From positions 1,613,501-1,677,500 of the forward strand of contig NC_019680.1 of NCBI RefSeq assembly GCF_000316685.1: 64,000 nucleotides of DNA. Direction: 5' to 3'. This DNA comes from Synechococcus sp. PCC 6312. Its GTDB lineage: Bacteria; Cyanobacteriota; Cyanobacteriia; Thermosynechococcales; Thermosynechococcaceae. The position numbers and the translations under genes were made by a program. Shown here piece by piece: positions 26,841-60,774 of the stretch. Under the pieces are notes generated by a model. It ran no database searches. It had not been told where the DNA came from and was given only the letters and a program-made list of their open reading frames with translations. Every line of letters begins with the position of its first letter. Positions within the stretch are counted from its first letter, which is position 1.

Positions 26841-28142
26841 ATGACTGAAAAGCTAATTATCAAAAACTTTGCTGGCATTAAAGAGCTGGAAATTGAAGTC
26901 AAGAAAATCAACATTCTCATTGGCCCAGAAACCAGTGGGAAAAGCATTTGTGCTAAGTTGCTTTTCTATTTCAAGAACTTTATCTGGGAAATCTTATCGG
27001 CAGTAGAAAAAGGACAAGAAGAAAGTCGATTAAACTCTGACTACTCTCAAAAATTTGTAGAATACTTTCCATCTGATTCATGGGGAAAGGGTGATTTTCA
27101 TATTAGATATGAAATTTTTGATATGTATATCGAAATCAAAAGAAATTCAGATAATCAAAGTAGCCTTTTTCTAGGCTATTCGGGTTTCTTTAAGACGAAG
27201 ATTAATGAATTATTTACTTCACGTAAAATGTTAAATGATCAGATTATTGATCAGACTAACAAATATGAACCTAATAGATTATTAGAACTTTGGGAGATAT
27301 TGCGTGATGTTTTTATAGAAAATTTACGTAATATTAAAATTCCAGAAGTAGGGTACAAACAACTATTTATCCCCGCTGGACGCTCATTTTTTGTTAATCT
27401 ACAAAACAAAATTTTTTCGGTTACTTCTAATAGTAATGTTCTTGATCCTTTTTTAAGAATGTTTGGCTTAATTTATGAAGGAATTAAAAATTCTCCACAC
27501 CATTTAAACCACAATCATGAGGAAATAATAAATTCTGATATTCAATCTGAAATTAGACAGGTTATTAAAAACTCCTTGCGTGCTAAACACATTCGCCGTG
27601 AAAGTGAAGATTATCTTGTTTCTAGTGATGGGAGACAGGTTCGTGTAGCTAACTCTTCATCTGGACAGCAGGAGCTTCTCCCCTTAACAATTATCCTAGA
27701 AGCACTACCATTTTTAGCTTATTCGTCACTTGGTTATGCAGTTTATGTTGAAGAACCAGAAGCACATCTCTTTCCAAACACTCAAAGAAATATTGTCGAG
27801 TTGATTACTGCGGTCTTTAATAGTCAATCAGATAAGTTACAATTTTTTATTACAACTCATAGCCCTTATGTCCTGACTGCGATTAATAACCTTCTCCAGG
27901 CCGGGCAACTCTATGAAACCGCTGATGAGGACACCCAAAAGAAACTAGAAGAGATTCTCCCAAAATATAAGTCACTCCATACGGCTGATGTGGCTGCCTA
28001 TTCTTTATCTGAGGGTCGTTGTCAAAATATTATTAATCCTGAAACAGGCCTGATTGATGCCCAAATCATTGACTCGGTTTCTGAAGAGTTAATAGTCCAA
28101 TTCGATAGTCTTCTTGATTTTGTTGAGCCAATTAATGAATAA
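26841..28142 (+). CDS. ABC/OLD-like ATPase, probable defence protein
   Basis: A 433-residue ATPase of the AAA_15/AAA_21, OLD-like kind. Walker A is GPETSGKS at residues 28-35, following KNFAGIKELEIEVK. The ABC-type signature SSSGQQE is near residue 270, Walker B VYVEEPEAHLFP near 299-312, and the switch His in FITTHSPYVL near 337. Between Walker A and the signature is an AT-rich, poorly recognisable helical insertion. The last 90 residues include a region rich in Tyr, Ser and Asn. GC is much lower than in putA upstream, a sign of transfer. Its stop overlaps the start of the next gene by eight bases, so the two form one unit. ATPases of this kind often drive a partner nuclease in anti-phage systems. 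Confidence 0.82.
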   Translation: MTEKLIIKNFAGIKELEIEVKKINILIGPETSGKSICAKLLFYFKNFIWEILSAVEKGQEESRLNSDYSQKFVEYFPSDSWGKGDFHIRYEIFDMYIEIKRNSDNQSSLFLGYSGFFKTKINELFTSRKMLNDQIIDQTNKYEPNRLLELWEILRDVFIENLRNIKIPEVGYKQLFIPAGRSFFVNLQNKIFSVTSNSNVLDPFLRMFGLIYEGIKNSPHHLNHNHEEIINSDIQSEIRQVIKNSLRAKHIRRESEDYLVSSDGRQVRVANSSSGQQELLPLTIILEALPFLAYSSLGYAVYVEEPEAHLFPNTQRNIVELITAVFNSQSDKLQFFITTHSPYVLTAINNLLQAGQLYETADEDTQKKLEEILPKYKSLHTADVAAYSLSEGRCQNIINPETGLIDAQIIDSVSEELIVQFDSLLDFVEPINE

Positions 28143-28572
28143 ATTGATTAACAGTCACCCTGAGTGTGTTACTAAGACAAAAGAAAAAATAATTGTATGT
28201 TCAGAAAAGAATCGAAAAATAGCCTTTAAAAACTCTCCAGGATATTGGGTTTATAAAATTAGAATTGATGATTGTGTCATTAAAGAGGGTAAAAAATGCG
28301 ATTTTGGTTTGATTCCTTGTGACAATGTAGAGATTTATGTCGAACTCAAAGGTAATAAGCTATCAGAAGCTATTGAACAACTTGAAATTACAATACCTCA
28401 ACTTACCAGTCATCCAAAAGCAATAAAAAAATTTTGTTTTGTTGTTTGTTCAAAAGTTGATGTTATTGAGACAAAAATACAAATTTGCAAGAGTCAGTTT
28501 ATTAGAAACTTCAATGCCAGACTTAATATTAAATGTGTTCAAGATGAATTCAATTTAATTAATTGCTGTTAA
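28135..28572 (+). CDS. Small PD-(D/E)XK-like nuclease, partner of the ATPase
   Basis: A 145-residue protein from ATG 28135, which overlaps the ATPase stop by eight bases. The core KKCDFGL, followed about 13 residues later by EIYVELKG, fits the Asp-X(n)-Glu-X-Lys catalytic pattern of the restriction-endonuclease-like fold, with strands and helices in the right order (KKFCFVVCSKV follows as a core strand). It may act on DNA or RNA when the ATPase is triggered. I do not know a characterised pair of exactly this form; PARIS, Septu and Gabija are compared in the findings. The alternative is a non-catalytic regulator of the ATPase. Confidence 0.6.
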   Translation: MNKLINSHPECVTKTKEKIIVCSEKNRKIAFKNSPGYWVYKIRIDDCVIKEGKKCDFGLIPCDNVEIYVELKGNKLSEAIEQLEITIPQLTSHPKAIKKFCFVVCSKVDVIETKIQICKSQFIRNFNARLNIKCVQDEFNLINCC

Positions 28573-29060: not shown

Positions 29061-32000
29061 TTAACTAATCAACGTCAGTTGTGATCCGGCCGTGGTTTTA
29101 GTGACAGCGATCCGGGTTTGAAACGCAGCTTGGAGTTGGGGCATATGGGTAATGGCTAAGATGCAGGCAAAATCTGGGGCAATACTATTCAAGGCGGCAA
29201 TTAACCGTTCACACCCCTCCTGATCTTGCGTCCCAAACCCTTCATCAATAATCAACAGTTGCAGTTCACTCCCACTTTGACGAGCTAACAAACGTGAAAG
29301 GGCTAACCGGATCGCAAAATTAACCCGAAAAGCTTCCCCACCAGAATAGGTTTCATAGGGACGAGTGCCTTGGGTATCAGCAATCAAAATATCTAGAGTA
29401 TCAATCAGCTTATTGGGTTCTTTACGGAAGGCTGCACCAACGGATTTAGTGCCTCGGCCCGCTTTTTGGGTGACAAACTGGACGTGGAGTTGACTGCCCG
29501 TTAACCGCCCAAGAAGATGATTTGCTTCGGCTTCTAGTTGGGGTAAAAGATTTTCAATCATCAGGGCCGGAATGCCATTTTGACCAAAAGCCTGGGCGAG
29601 TTCTTGATAAATTTGTAGTTGGGACTGGGCGTGGGCCTGTTGCTGTTGGAGTTGGCCCAGTTGGGTTTGGAGTTGGTTGTGCTGCTGTTGTTGTTGGCTG
29701 AGACGACCGAGGTGGGCCAGATGGGTTTCGAGATTAGTTTGGGCTTGGTTCATCTCCTCGGCAAGTTGCTTAAGGCGATTGGGGGTATCTTGGCTGTGAT
29801 GGAGTTGGGCGTGTAGGTGTGTGATTTGAGTTCCGATCTCTGCAATTTGCTCTTTAATCTTGTCTATGGCGATGGTCAAGTCTTGGATGGTTTGTTGAAG
29901 TTGGGGAACCCTGGCCTGGGCCTGGGTCAGTTCTTGCCATTGAAGTAAATAGGGCTGATAGTCCCGCAACTGGGCCTGGAGTTGATGGTGAACAGTGGGG
30001 TCATAGTCAAGCGCGTCCAGTTGGGCCTGGATGGTTTGCAATTCTTGAGCTAAGTCGGAGTCGGTGGTGAGGGTCTTAAGTTCCGTTTGGAGGTGATTTT
30101 GCTGCGTGATCAGGGCCGGGAGTTGTTGTTCTAGATGATGGAGTTGGCGGCGGGCCTGGTTCAGTTCGGCTTGTTTAGCTTCGGCCCAACGCCACCGTTC
30201 GACTTCGCCTCGGGCCAGGGCATGAGTTTTTTCGTCATAGTTGAGGGCGGCCAACTGGGTAGTCAGGGTTTGCCATTCCGGGGCCTGATTTTGGGCCTGT
30301 TGCTGCTGCTGGAGTTGGGATTCAAGGGTTTGAATTTCGTTAAAGATGCGATGCAACTGTGCTTCCAAGCTCGTCGTATTCCCTAATTGGGCTTCCAGGC
30401 GGCCCCGCTGCTCTAGGACTTGATGGAGTTGGCTCAGTTCTTGATCAACCTCTCGATATTCCCGGCGCAGAACTTGAATTTCCCGCTCGGACACTGCTAA
30501 CTGTTCCCGAATCACCCAAATTTGATCCAGCAGATCTTGTTGAGACTGTTCATGGCGTTGTTTGACCAAGGCCCAGTGCAATTCATCCAATGGCCGATCA
30601 CAGAGGGGACAGCAGGCATCTGGAACCGTTAACAGTTGCATTTTTTGCTCCAATTGCCCCAGTTGAGTTTCGAGATCCCGTTGCCGATCTTGGAGTTGTT
30701 CCATAAAGCGGCGGCGTTCCAGGCCCTTGTCTTGGAGATGTTGTAGATACACCCGTTGCTTTTGGAGATGGGAGATTTTGCTGGTGACTTCTAAAACCGC
30801 TTGTTGAAGTTGGGGCTGGCCGGCCTGTTGTTGCTGGAGTTGGCGGGCATTGCTGCGTAGTTCATCCATGCGGGCGACAAGGCGAGAGTGGGCGCGTTCT
30901 TGTTCCAGTTCCAGTTGGCGTTGGAGTTGCAGGAGGGGAAAGGCTTGATTTTGGAGATCGTCAAGATAGTGCAGCTTGGCCTTGCTGGTGTGGAGGTTTT
31001 GGAGTGCGGCTTCGATTTCAGTTTCTTTACTGATAACTTTTAAACAATCAGCCTGTTGCTGTTCTAGGCGGGTGAGTTGAGATTGGCAGGTTTGTAATTG
31101 TTGATGCAGGGTTAGGCTGGCCTGGTCGAGGGCTTGTTGCAAGTTTTGGCGGCGAGTTTCCAGGCCCCGATAAACCGTTGCTTTTTCTGCTAACTGGCGA
31201 TCCTGGGTTTGCAGGTGTTGCCAATACCCATAACCGGCCTGGATTTGAGCTTGGGTCTGGAGGAGGGGGTGCAGTTTTTGGAGTTGGGCCTGGGCTGTGG
31301 TGCAACTTTGTGATTGGCGGGTGAGTTCTGCTTGGAGATGAGTCTGTTGCTGGTTGGCCCAAGTCAGTTGTTGCTGCCAGAGTTGTCGGCTTTGGGACAG
31401 TTCGGTTAGTTTTTGTTGCTCGGCCTGGAGGTGTTCAAGCTGTTGTCGCAAGGCGCGAATTTTTTGCTCTAGGCTGACTTTTTCGCAGGCTAAATCTTCC
31501 AGGCCCGTGAGTTGGGCTTCAATTTGGCTCAGGTTTTGCCCTAATAGTCCAAGTTGACCTTTATATTGACGGGCAGAATCACGGGCGGCCTCGGCTAGAG
31601 TTTCATAGTGATCCAGTTTGAGTAAATCGGCTAGGAGTTGTTTACGTTCGGCCGGCCGTTTGAGCATAAATTCATCGGCGCGCCCTTGACGTAAATAGGC
31701 CGAATTGATGAAGGTTTCATAGTCCAAATGAATCTGTTGGCAAATTCGCGCTTGGGTTTGGCGTAAACTGCGGCCAGTTAAACTCCGAAATCCTGATGGG
31801 TCGCCTAGGTTGGCAGTGGCCTCAATCCGGGCCTGGAACTCCAAATAGGTGGCCTGGTTTCGGCGGCGGGTGCGGATAATTCGATAACATTGCCCCTGAA
31901 TTTCTAAAACAAAATCAACTTGGGCTTCTGTTTGACCGCTGTGGATCAGATCATCTTCATTAATGGCCCGACTTTGGCCCCAAACCGCCCAGGCCATGGC

Positions 32001-32126
32001 TTCTAATAGGGATGATTTTCCAGCACCATTGGGGCCACAAATACAAGCCAACTGTAAGCCGCTAAAGTCCAAACTGGCCTGGTGATAGCTGAGAAAGTTT
32101 TGTAAGGTTAGACGCAGGGGGATCAT
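29061..32126 (-). CDS. sbcC: SbcC-like SMC-family exonuclease subunit
   Basis: A large ATPase of about 1021 residues with the Rad50/SbcC layout. Walker A GPNGAGKSS lies close to the N terminus, two very long Gln/Leu-rich coiled-coil arms flank a zinc-hook motif CPLC near residue 505-510, and the C-terminal head carries an ABC-type signature TYSGGEAFR and Walker B LLIIDEGFGTQDQ. It works with SbcD to process hairpins and broken DNA ends. The partner sbcD is not in the window. ATG 32126 (MIPLRL) is the likely start. Confidence 0.92.
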   Translation of the reverse strand: MIPLRLTLQNFLSYHQASLDFSGLQLACICGPNGAGKSSLLEAMAWAVWGQSRAINEDDLIHSGQTEAQVDFVLEIQGQCYRIIRTRRRNQATYLEFQARIEATANLGDPSGFRSLTGRSLRQTQARICQQIHLDYETFINSAYLRQGRADEFMLKRPAERKQLLADLLKLDHYETLAEAARDSARQYKGQLGLLGQNLSQIEAQLTGLEDLACEKVSLEQKIRALRQQLEHLQAEQQKLTELSQSRQLWQQQLTWANQQQTHLQAELTRQSQSCTTAQAQLQKLHPLLQTQAQIQAGYGYWQHLQTQDRQLAEKATVYRGLETRRQNLQQALDQASLTLHQQLQTCQSQLTRLEQQQADCLKVISKETEIEAALQNLHTSKAKLHYLDDLQNQAFPLLQLQRQLELEQERAHSRLVARMDELRSNARQLQQQQAGQPQLQQAVLEVTSKISHLQKQRVYLQHLQDKGLERRRFMEQLQDRQRDLETQLGQLEQKMQLLTVPDACCPLCDRPLDELHWALVKQRHEQSQQDLLDQIWVIREQLAVSEREIQVLRREYREVDQELSQLHQVLEQRGRLEAQLGNTTSLEAQLHRIFNEIQTLESQLQQQQQAQNQAPEWQTLTTQLAALNYDEKTHALARGEVERWRWAEAKQAELNQARRQLHHLEQQLPALITQQNHLQTELKTLTTDSDLAQELQTIQAQLDALDYDPTVHHQLQAQLRDYQPYLLQWQELTQAQARVPQLQQTIQDLTIAIDKIKEQIAEIGTQITHLHAQLHHSQDTPNRLKQLAEEMNQAQTNLETHLAHLGRLSQQQQQHNQLQTQLGQLQQQQAHAQSQLQIYQELAQAFGQNGIPALMIENLLPQLEAEANHLLGRLTGSQLHVQFVTQKAGRGTKSVGAAFRKEPNKLIDTLDILIADTQGTRPYETYSGGEAFRVNFAIRLALSRLLARQSGSELQLLIIDEGFGTQDQEGCERLIAALNSIAPDFACILAITHMPQLQAAFQTRIAVTKTTAGSQLTLIS

Positions 32127-32141
32127 CGCATTATTAAGCAA

Positions 32142-32490: not shown

Positions 32491-33159
32491 TTACCCAGAC
32501 TGAAATTGACTCAATAACCAGGCCCCAACCTGGGATTGATCTGTTTCTCGGCTGCGACGCAGAGCTTCTTCTAAAACCGTAAAAGCCAGGCCTGGTAATA
32601 CTTGTGATCCTTGAATCCGGTTGCTACCCCCATCCGTCATGACATAAGCCGTAATTTCAATTTTTTCGACATCTACAACCCAATATTCCTTAACTCCTAA
32701 TGACTCATAAAGAAAACGCTTCACACTCAGGTCATCAAACAGCGAAGACTTGGCCACTTCAATCACCAAATCGGGAGCCGGATAGGTCTCTAAATCAATA
32801 ACCCCAGTCCCAAACGGAACAGCTTGAGTCTTGTCACCCAGATAAAACGACACATCCGGTTGACACTCTGCCACCCCAGATTTGCGATAACTACAGTTTC
32901 CTAAAACCTTGAACCGAATCCCCTGAGCAATACCAAACAGATTAACGGCAAGGGTAATTGTGCCATCACTTTCAGCGTGATCATGACTAACAGGCGGCAT
33001 TTCTAACCTCATGTGGCCCCGGTAGTAATAGCATTTCGTTTTGTCATTGGCTGGATCGGTTACAAGAGCTTGATACTCATCCCAAGCAACAGGCAGCCAA
33101 GTATCACTCATGGGTTGAGTCGGTTTTGCAGTTGGAGATAATGCTTCCGCTAGTGTCAT
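32491..33159 (-). CDS. Uma2 family (DUF820) endonuclease-like protein
   Basis: A 222-residue protein of the Uma2/DUF820 family, greatly expanded in cyanobacteria, with a restriction-like fold: VAECQPDVSFYLG and APDLVIEVAKSS, followed by KRFLYESLGVKEYWVVDVEK. These provide the Asp, Glu and Lys of the PD-(D/E)XK site. Biological role is not established. Such genes often sit in variable regions, as here beside remnants and toxin-antitoxin genes. Confidence 0.88.
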   Translation of the reverse strand: MTLAEALSPTAKPTQPMSDTWLPVAWDEYQALVTDPANDKTKCYYYRGHMRLEMPPVSHDHAESDGTITLAVNLFGIAQGIRFKVLGNCSYRKSGVAECQPDVSFYLGDKTQAVPFGTGVIDLETYPAPDLVIEVAKSSLFDDLSVKRFLYESLGVKEYWVVDVEKIEITAYVMTDGGSNRIQGSQVLPGLAFTVLEEALRRSRETDQSQVGAWLLSQFQSG

Positions 33160-38163: not shown

Positions 38164-38511
38164 TTAATCTTGAATATCATCTAAAACTCGTGAAATCATA
38201 ACTTTTAGTCTTGGAACATCTTCAACCACCGCTTGCCAAACAATCTCCACATCCGTATTGAAATAATTATGAATCAGTTTATCTCGCATTCCAGCAACAT
38301 CTCTCCAAGGAATATCAGGGTACTCCTGCCTGACTGAATCTGGTATGTGTTTTACTGTTTCACCAATAATCTCAATGGCTCTAGAAACGGCAAAGACCTT
38401 CTCTAAGTTTTGGGAGAAATCATCAAGTTCAATCCCAGTTGTAAATTGCTCAATCGCACCGACCGCATCCAAAATATCCTGTAAATAATCCTGAATCTGC
38501 CGCTGAGTCAC
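38164..38511 (-). CDS. hepT: HepT-type ribonuclease toxin (DUF86)
   Basis: A 115-residue HEPN protein with the motif R-X4-H-X-Y seen as MRDKLIHNYF near residue 78-86. Family knowledge: the HEPN site cuts RNA, and the partner MntA silences it by adding AMP to the Tyr of this motif. It starts at a GTG that overlaps the stop of the nucleotidyltransferase gene by four bases (GTGA). Confidence 0.88.
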   Translation of the reverse strand: MTQRQIQDYLQDILDAVGAIEQFTTGIELDDFSQNLEKVFAVSRAIEIIGETVKHIPDSVRQEYPDIPWRDVAGMRDKLIHNYFNTDVEIVWQAVVEDVPRLKVMISRVLDDIQD

Positions 38512-38801
38512 AAATAAACAACCTCTGCCAAAATCCGTTCACCAATTCGGGGTTTCAAGCCAGCTTTATGAACCAAATCCACTTTGCACCCAAAATGATC
38601 AGTCAGGTAGTTTTCTAAATTGATAAACTTCAAAAGGCTGGGTGTTTGAGAAAATTCTACAAGTATATCTACATCACTAGTGTCTGTTTGTTCTTGCCTG
38701 ACGTAGGAACCAAAAACTCCAAGTTCTTTAACGTGATAGCGTTCTTCAAGAACAAGTTTATTGGCTTCTAACCATGACATGATTTCTCCTAATGTTTTCA
38801 T
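38508..38801 (-). CDS. mntA: MntA-type nucleotidyltransferase antitoxin
   Basis: A 97-residue minimal nucleotidyltransferase. The motif GSYVRQEQTDTSDVD matches G-S-X10-D-X-D exactly, and the third carboxylate is probably in KVDLVHK. In the HepT/MntA pair it transfers AMP to the toxin. I prefer ATG 38801 (MKTLGEIM) over the TTG at 38849, which would overlap the PIN gene. Confidence 0.85.
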   Translation of the reverse strand: MKTLGEIMSWLEANKLVLEERYHVKELGVFGSYVRQEQTDTSDVDILVEFSQTPSLLKFINLENYLTDHFGCKVDLVHKAGLKPRIGERILAEVVYL

Positions 38802-38845
38802 AATTCTGGTGCTCTTAAGGTAACGGTTAGAAAATTCATCCTTTA

Positions 38846-39268
38846 TCAAAGCCCAGACGGAGGGAATAAAATTTCTAGATCATTCGGTAAAACTACAGGA
38901 ATCTCTGAATTGACAAATCCCGATAAATCACGGGTTACAATAGCATCTAGGTTATATGCGATTGCACAGGAATACTGAACTGCATCCTCATAATCTTGAA
39001 AATTAAGTTTAATTGCTTGTTCTAAGACCTCCTGATCAACTGTACAAATATTGAGACTAGAAAGAATTTGAATAACAGAGTTTTTTGCCACTATAGCCCC
39101 AACTCCACGGCGGACAATATAGTAAATATTTGTAATCGTTGTAGCCGCAATAAATCCTTCGATCTCTCCTCTATCAATTCGGGCAAAGAGTTCCGCTGCG
39201 CTTTCAACAAAAGGTTCTCGTTCCTGTAGAAAATCAAGCACAACGTTAGTATCAATTAGAAGCCTCAT
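38846..39268 (-). CDS. PIN-domain ribonuclease (VapC-like toxin)
   Basis: A 140-residue PIN protein. LIDTNVVLDFL at the N terminus holds the first catalytic Asp, and FQDYEDAVQYSCAIAY and AIVTRDLSGF supply the other acidic residues of the metal site. It probably cuts RNA. Its start codon overlaps the stop of the upstream antitoxin gene (TAATG), typical of a toxin-antitoxin operon. Confidence 0.87.
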   Translation of the reverse strand: MRLLIDTNVVLDFLQEREPFVESAAELFARIDRGEIEGFIAATTITNIYYIVRRGVGAIVAKNSVIQILSSLNICTVDQEVLEQAIKLNFQDYEDAVQYSCAIAYNLDAIVTRDLSGFVNSEIPVVLPNDLEILFPPSGL

Positions 39269-59862: not shown

Positions 59863-60774
59863 ATGAGTCATGACATCTACAAATTGATTTGTCAGAAACC
59901 AAAAGACTGTAAACGCTTGATGGGTGTTAACTTTGAGCAACTAGAAGAGCTGATCGAACATTGTAAAAGATTGCATCAGATAAAACAAGAGGAGATTGAG
60001 AACCAGAAGAAACGAGTGATTCGAGCGGGCGGTGGTCAGTCTCCTATCTTGACCCTAGAAAACCAAATTATCTTAACGCTACTCTATCTCAGACATTATT
60101 TAACTTTTCAACTGCTTGGTTTGATGTTTCACGTCAGCGAGTCCACTGCTCATAATGTCTTTAACTATTGGCAAATACTCCTGGAGGAAGGACTATCACC
60201 TAGTCTTTTAGAACAAGTAAAAAGTACCCGGAGGCTGGGGCTGAAACTCTGGCCAAATTAGTCAATCAAGAGTTAGTGATAGATAGCACAGAACAAGTCA
60301 TAGAGCGACCTTCGAGCTATCAGGAGCAGAAGCGTACATATTCTGGCAAAAGGAAGAATTTCACTTTAAAAAAATCAGTTAATTGTAAGTCCTGTGACTT
60401 TAGATATTATTGATGTGGTCGTGGGGATGCCAGGTCGGATAAGTGATATTAGTATCTGGCGAAACAGTCGAACTCGCTTTACCCTAGAGCAGTTCTTTAT
60501 GGGAGATAAAGCTTATGTGGGAGAGAGACAAATTAAAACACCAACGAAAAAGCCTAAGAATGGAGAATTAACGCGTCAAGAGAAAGAAGATAACAAATCG
60601 TTTTCAGCACGACGTATTATCGTAGAACATTTGATTCGTTTTGTGAAAATATTTAGGATTATGCAAGAGCGATTCCGACTTCCAATATCTCGATATGATT
60701 CAATTTTTCTAACTGTTTGTGGACTAGTGAGATTGCGATTGGGCTGTTTAGAGTTGAGATTAGTTAAACATTAA
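59863..60774 (+). pseudogene. IS5-type DDE transposase, frameshifted
   Basis: A transposase of about 300 residues split by two indels. The N-terminal part (59863-60220) has a helix-turn-helix (QLLGLMFHVSESTAHNVFNYW). Then a run of five A at 60219-60223, where six would keep the frame, shifts reading by one base. A run of seven A at 60368-60374, where six would fit, restores it. The first catalytic Asp (VIDSTEQ) lies between the two shifts, the second in FMGDKAYV, and the Glu in VEHLIRFVK. As it stands it cannot make an active enzyme. Terminal inverted repeats were not recognised. Low GC marks it as foreign. Confidence 0.85.

Follow-up and report, generated by a model that had tools for sequence, protein, structure and literature searches.

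WonAB, a two-gene operon of the V. cholerae WASA-1 prophage (AWB73975.1 and AWB73976.1), is a tested anti-phage system (PMC12137116). Its first product, WonA, is an OLD-type ABC ATPase in which K34, R182, E300 and H333 are needed for defence, the R182A exchange alone abolishing it, and its second product, WonB, is a 16.1-kDa PD-(D/E)xK protein whose K71 to alanine change abolishes both defence and toxicity (PMC12137116). WonB is reported to be harmless without WonA, and its toxicity requires its own nuclease residue together with the WonA ATPase (PMC12137116). The system works by abortive infection, and translation is inhibited once it is activated; DNA is not degraded, phage DNA replication still begins, and tRNA or rRNA has been suggested as the WonB target (PMC12137116). 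The same report ties WonAB to a class described in silico, "OLD-ABC ATPase + novel REase" (Krishnan et al. 2020), and the organisation of PD-T4-4 has been noted as similar (PMC12137116). Here we describe a gene pair of this general layout in Synechococcus sp. PCC 6312, which we compare with WonAB, with PDC-M29, a candidate system in PADLOC, and with Septu, PARIS and Gabija.

Gene layout and predicted active sites

The pair lies within a 64,000-nucleotide stretch that was analysed as a whole (the window). Its features are as follows.

26841 to 28142, plus strand: gene A, 433 residues, an AAA_15, PtuA-like ABC ATPase, the proposed sensing and regulatory component
26922 to 26945, plus strand: Walker A, GPETSGKS (residues 28 to 35, including K34); G28, G33, K34 and S35 invariant in 25 homologues
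27381 to 27383, plus strand: R181 in a PAGR motif, at the position of WonA R182; invariant in 25 homologues
27654 to 27674, plus strand: ABC signature, SSSGQQE (residues 272 to 278); S273, S274, G275 and Q277 invariant in 25 homologues
27750 to 27761, plus strand: end of Walker B with the predicted catalytic glutamate, EEPE (residues 304 to 307); invariant in 25 homologues
27858 to 27860, plus strand: H-loop (switch) histidine H340 in TTHSPY; invariant in 25 homologues
28135 to 28572, plus strand: gene B, 145 residues, a small predicted PD-(D/E)XK nuclease, proposed effector
28300 to 28302, plus strand: predicted catalytic aspartate D56 in KCD; invariant in 30 of 30 homologues and in the prophage relatives
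28342 to 28350, plus strand: predicted catalytic E70-L-K72 (ELK); invariant in 30 of 30 homologues, with K72 at the place of WonB K71

A first-pass annotation had read this locus as two genes overlapping by 8 bases. That overlap is borne out when gene B starts at the ATG at 28135, and in the family alignment the homologues of gene B begin near this position; the alternative start, a TTG at 28114, would give a protein of 152 residues. The gene preceding the pair encodes PutA and the one following it encodes DUF2499/Ycf49. The earlier remark that the pair is AT-rich relative to its surroundings also stood up, with a GC content of 32.8% against 48.5% in the remainder of the window; the two genes form the lowest-GC 1.7-kb stretch of the window, about 3.8 s.d. 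under the window mean. A promoter scan gave no signal exceeding that of shuffled sequences.

Protein A matched Pfam AAA_15 with an E-value of 2.6e-19. The Walker A, SSSGQQE, Walker B and switch-histidine motifs picked out previously are real, and their core residues are invariant in 25 homologues, across which K34, R181, SSG, EEPE, P312, Q315 and TTHSPY are unchanged; E304/E305 fall within VEEPEAH and H340 within TTHSP. The AlphaFold2 model of protein A had a pLDDT of 81.8, and its best Foldseek matches were PtuA, from Septu and retron complexes, and Rad50 (1e-10 to 1e-9). By its motifs, protein A is a complete AAA_15/ABC ATPase.

Protein B matched no Pfam family. It contains the motifs KCDFGL (D56) and EIYVELKG (E70 and K72), the cores of which had already been recognized, followed by Q82, and the residues C11, D45, C55, D56, E70, L71, K72, G73 and Q82 were unchanged in all 30 homologues. 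Its AlphaFold2 model (pLDDT 92.5) comprises strands 39-43, 57-62 and 65-71, a helix at 76-90 and a strand at 98-105, which is the usual PD-(D/E)XK core; D56 immediately precedes strand 57-62, and E70 and K72 stand at the end of strand 65-71. Foldseek returned weak matches (best E 0.06), most of the top ones being PD-(D/E)XK enzymes, namely Mus81, Can2, NucS, PspGI, XPF and the BspD6I small subunit. The PD-(D/E)XK fold of protein B is well supported by the motif and the predicted model taken together, rather than by fold comparison by itself, and by its sequence the protein is predicted to have an intact active site of this type (D56, E70-x-K72, Q82). The reading of the pair as an ABC-type ATPase with a small PD-(D/E)XK nuclease thus holds on the motifs, the AAA_15 match and the model of protein B.

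Three cysteines of the small nuclease, C11, C47 and C55, are nearly invariant across phyla. We considered a metal-binding role for them and set it aside; C55 is alanine in several phage copies of B and is therefore not essential in those copies.

Pairing, selection and distribution

Conserved adjacency had been proposed as a check on the pair. Of the 83 distinct B proteins pooled from all loci then known (Cyanobacteriota, Bacteroidota and phages), 79 are directly preceded, on the same strand, by a gene for an A-type ATPase. Among the other four, one copy is cut off by the end of its contig, two are disrupted or fragmentary, and one (L115) lacks a recognisable ATPase gene in the upstream position. 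The pairwise distances among A proteins were correlated with those among B proteins (r = 0.91), a value reached in none of 2,000 permutations, and dN/dS was 0.1 to 0.5 in 13 of 14 comparisons of close relatives; a dN/dS above 1 in one B comparison rested on very few synonymous changes. Together, these results show that A and B form a real unit with near-obligatory pairing, under purifying selection.

Scanning 84,980 genomes with an alignment of B yielded 42 loci, in Cyanobacteriota and Bacteroidota. The gene was present in one of 29 genomes of the host's order, in 27 of 386 Cyanobacteriota genomes and in 13 of 297 genomes from the phylum of a Flavobacterium locus. Among the 37 loci whose flanking sequence exceeds 4 kb, the pair was AT-richer than its flanks in every case, by 10.5 points on average. 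In an ATPase tree, which was rooted by midpoint and contains two rows with long branches, a Chitinophaga-type Bacteroidota clade joins the clade of the window protein (support 94/85), and a Nostocales-type clade stands apart. The putA-ycf49 gene order is not kept in relatives from the host's order. The pair is horizontally mobile, with a patchy and AT-rich distribution.

Viral copies and genomic surroundings

An ATPase-alignment search of IMG/VR recovered A followed by B in 14 viral genomes (L150 to L162 and L165). The neighbours of the pair in the viral genomes that were inspected vary by phage and include a portal gene, a head gene, a phage repressor or a transposase. A further viral scan, with another alignment, added no full-length pair to those already found, and a scan of viral contigs with a B alignment found no relatives, its sole search pattern being probably too specific. 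With B as query, the phage search gave a single relative, on a gut phage contig that lacks annotation. The A and B pair is present on two unannotated scaffolds of human-gut origin, both labelled "Bacteriophage sp.", MT838931.1 (L135) and MT836320.1 (L136).

Three of the 14 viral genomes are E. coli prophages, and the pair was found in 10 of 5,426 complete E. coli genomes. In the two E. coli genomes that were inspected, it lies within a P2-like prophage, with the gene for the replication endonuclease on one side and that for the portal on the other; this gpA-gpQ interval of P2-like prophages has been defined as a hotspot for systems directed against phage (Rousset et al. 2022, PMC9122126). The prophage proteins, WP_000427721.1 and WP_000335230.1, are annotated as an AAA family ATPase and a hypothetical protein. 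Both are homologous to their counterparts in the window: the two A proteins share 32% identity over 437 columns (E 5e-71), and the B proteins matched in a profile-profile comparison with a probability of 100% (E 2.6e-44). When three prophage pairs were scanned against PADLOC, the best match of A was PDC-M29A and B matched no family at 1e-5, so that the family is broader than the present PDC-M29B models of PADLOC. We suspected that three viral copies (L153, L154 and L161) might be WonAB itself, given a B of 16.1 kDa with K71; they proved to be E. coli P2-like prophages, and the residue numbers of their A proteins are unlike those of WonA, which ruled this out. Across three viral scans, no copy was identifiable as WonAB.

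The viral searches also returned ten contigs (L163, L164, L167, L170, L171, L176, L178, L180, L183 and L190) on which ORFs of another kind, about 200 residues long and mostly containing a short E-x-K motif, come after an A-like ATPase gene. Judged from these sequences, they may represent additional ATPase-nuclease pairs whose effectors are of other types.

The expectation of a defence context holds in part: relatives of the pair occupy phage defence sites, whereas no defence island was seen around the window copy. Its nearest neighbours are housekeeping-like, and a scan of 53 window proteins, run like that of the flanks of relatives with no control set, showed few defence-like genes. The strong defence context stems from the phage copies and not from the surroundings of the window copy. 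In the flanks of relatives (144 proteins, scanned with PADLOC with no control set), only a few scattered defence-like genes were found, including AbiLi/PDC-M38A-like ATPases and one SNF2 helicase; one further match was a misfire, a topoisomerase matching DpdF. In two Microcoleus loci, a second AAA_15 ATPase of AbiLi/PDC-M38A-like type occurs a few kb downstream of the pair (L032, 12528 to 14328; L035, 11526 to 13305) and is followed by a DUF3226 protein, as domain scans of L032 showed.

Several other genes of the window are recorded here as observations in their own right. An sbcC gene lies near the pair, at 29061 to 32141, and a Uma2-family putative endonuclease is encoded at 32494 to 33159 on the minus strand. 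At 38511 to 39268 on the minus strand, an NTP_transf_2 small nucleotidyltransferase gene adjoins a PIN_3 gene, and another small ORF, the third of the group, lies beside them at 38167 to 38511; by sequence, this group at 38167 to 39268 looks like a toxin-antitoxin cluster. A DDE transposase fragment is present at 60394 to 60771 on the plus strand.

Proposed function and comparison with known systems

A defence role of the pair is well supported. We propose, with a probability of roughly 0.72, that it is a horizontally mobile two-gene anti-phage system, PDC-M29-like and WonAB-like, in which an ABC ATPase and a small PD-(D/E)XK nuclease act by abortive infection; that it is a defence system of this ATPase-nuclease kind, whatever its mode of action, is likelier still. 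By analogy with WonAB, protein A would dimerise with ATP bound and sense infection, and protein B would be bound to A and either kept inactive or licensed by it. A cue from phage replication would then drive the ATP cycle of A to free or activate B, and active B would cut nucleic acid, arresting the cell before virions form. RNA as the target of B is a guess of moderate weight, and translation arrest through RNA cleavage by B is a tentative element of the model to which we give somewhat less than even odds.

A different mode of action would be direct restriction, in which B, loaded by the ATPase, would act as a DNase that cleaves incoming phage or plasmid DNA but leaves the host intact, in the way a Septu or restriction-modification-like system might. 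The PD-(D/E)XK fold serves mostly on DNA, the top Foldseek matches of B include the DNA enzymes Mus81, XPF, NucS and PspGI, and the ATPases that A resembles, PtuA and Rad50, work on nucleic acid. Against this stand the lack of a methylase or other self-mark gene beside the pair and the behaviour of WonAB, the closest tested relative by architecture, which leaves DNA undegraded and lets phage DNA replication begin. We regard restriction as unlikely.

About as doubtful is the view that the nucleases of 140 to 150 residues and their dedicated ATPase stand as a lineage apart, responding to a trigger and acting on a nucleic-acid target of their own, by a mechanism separate from those of WonAB and PDC-M29. 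These nucleases share an invariant D..CD..ELKG..Q pattern and the near-invariant cysteines 11, 47 and 55, belong to no Pfam family, and occur with their ATPase in Cyanobacteriota, Bacteroidota and enterobacterial prophages, and the PADLOC models miss the nuclease of the prophage members.

The overlap of the genes, their mobility and an effector the size of a toxin alongside a larger partner would also suit a toxin-antitoxin or addiction module. In such a module B would be kept in check by A, post-segregational killing would maintain the two genes on mobile DNA, and they would contribute little to defence directly. The entire ATPase active site is nevertheless strictly conserved, and WonB toxicity depends on the WonA ATPase, contrary to what simple neutralisation would predict; moreover, a search with B as query found no relatives on plasmids. 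An addiction module is accordingly improbable. Most improbable of all is a DNA-repair or housekeeping pair of a RecF/SbcC-like ATPase and a repair nuclease, with incidental AT-richness: the ABC/SMC-like fold common to A and Rad50 and the nearby sbcC would fit it, but the patchy distribution (one of 29 genomes in the order), the carriage by phages and prophages and the consistent AT-richness against flanks speak against it.

The abortive-infection system that we favour can be set beside the named ATPase-effector systems. The first-pass annotation had judged the pair to be neither PARIS, Septu nor Gabija, and the effector indeed fails the defining features of these systems. PtuA of Septu is the best structural match of protein A, but the Septu effector PtuB is an HNH protein, whereas protein B has a PD-(D/E)XK core and motifs and no HNH match in Pfam; membership of Septu was rejected on these grounds. 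Protein A matches the AriA models of PARIS at 2e-22; AriB has a DUF4435/Toprim domain, for which protein B gave no match in Pfam or PADLOC, and PARIS was rejected as well. Gabija combines GajA, with its C-terminal Toprim domain, and the helicase GajB, and was rejected since protein A has only 433 residues with Pfam ABC-type ATPase domains and no Toprim, and the next genes are B and DUF2499. Although protein A matches PD-T4-4_A at 6e-14, PD-T4-4 was likewise rejected, as protein B had no match to PD-T4-4_B even at an E-value of 5.

PDC-M29 fits better, as both of its components are matched by the window proteins in identical order. For protein A, PDC-M29A was the best of 114 PADLOC families (1.5e-25), and PDC-M29B was the sole family matched by protein B (1e-6, over 103 of 145 residues); 29 of 30 members of the B subgroup matched PDC-M29B, the best at 2.5e-12. 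Cyanobacterial PDC-M29B members likewise have an A-type ATPase directly upstream. The B proteins differ in size, PDC-M29B proteins typically having about 170 residues with an N-terminal extension and the window protein 145. A profile comparison of the window-type B group with the PDC-M29B group gave an E-value of 7.7e-8, and the window pair is thus a neighbouring subgroup to PDC-M29.

The earlier suggestion that the pair is an unnamed, separate family is therefore not supported: its proteins match PDC-M29A and PDC-M29B, its architecture has been tested as WonAB, and on both counts it largely belongs to a named system, though not to PARIS or Septu, where such a membership had been anticipated. 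This ties an uncharacterised cyanobacterial pair to a phage-carried family that has a tested relative, and the link provides a concrete mechanism to test. The pair is worth testing because its copy in the E. coli P2 hotspot, for which we found no test in the literature, allows a cheap and easy laboratory experiment.

WonAB and the window pair share the same layout, a two-gene operon of an ABC ATPase and a small PD-(D/E)XK nuclease. Matched by position and motif, K34, R182, E300 and H333 of WonA correspond to K34, R181, E304/E305 and H340 of the window protein, and K71 of the 16.1-kDa WonB corresponds to K72 of the 16.7-kDa protein B; all of these counterparts are invariant in the A and B alignments. 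Kinship with WonAB is suggested by this architecture and these residue numbers, rather than by sequence alignment. Together, these comparisons indicate that the pair is a divergent representative of a kind of defence system that has already been catalogued, as PDC-M29, and tested in one relative, WonAB.
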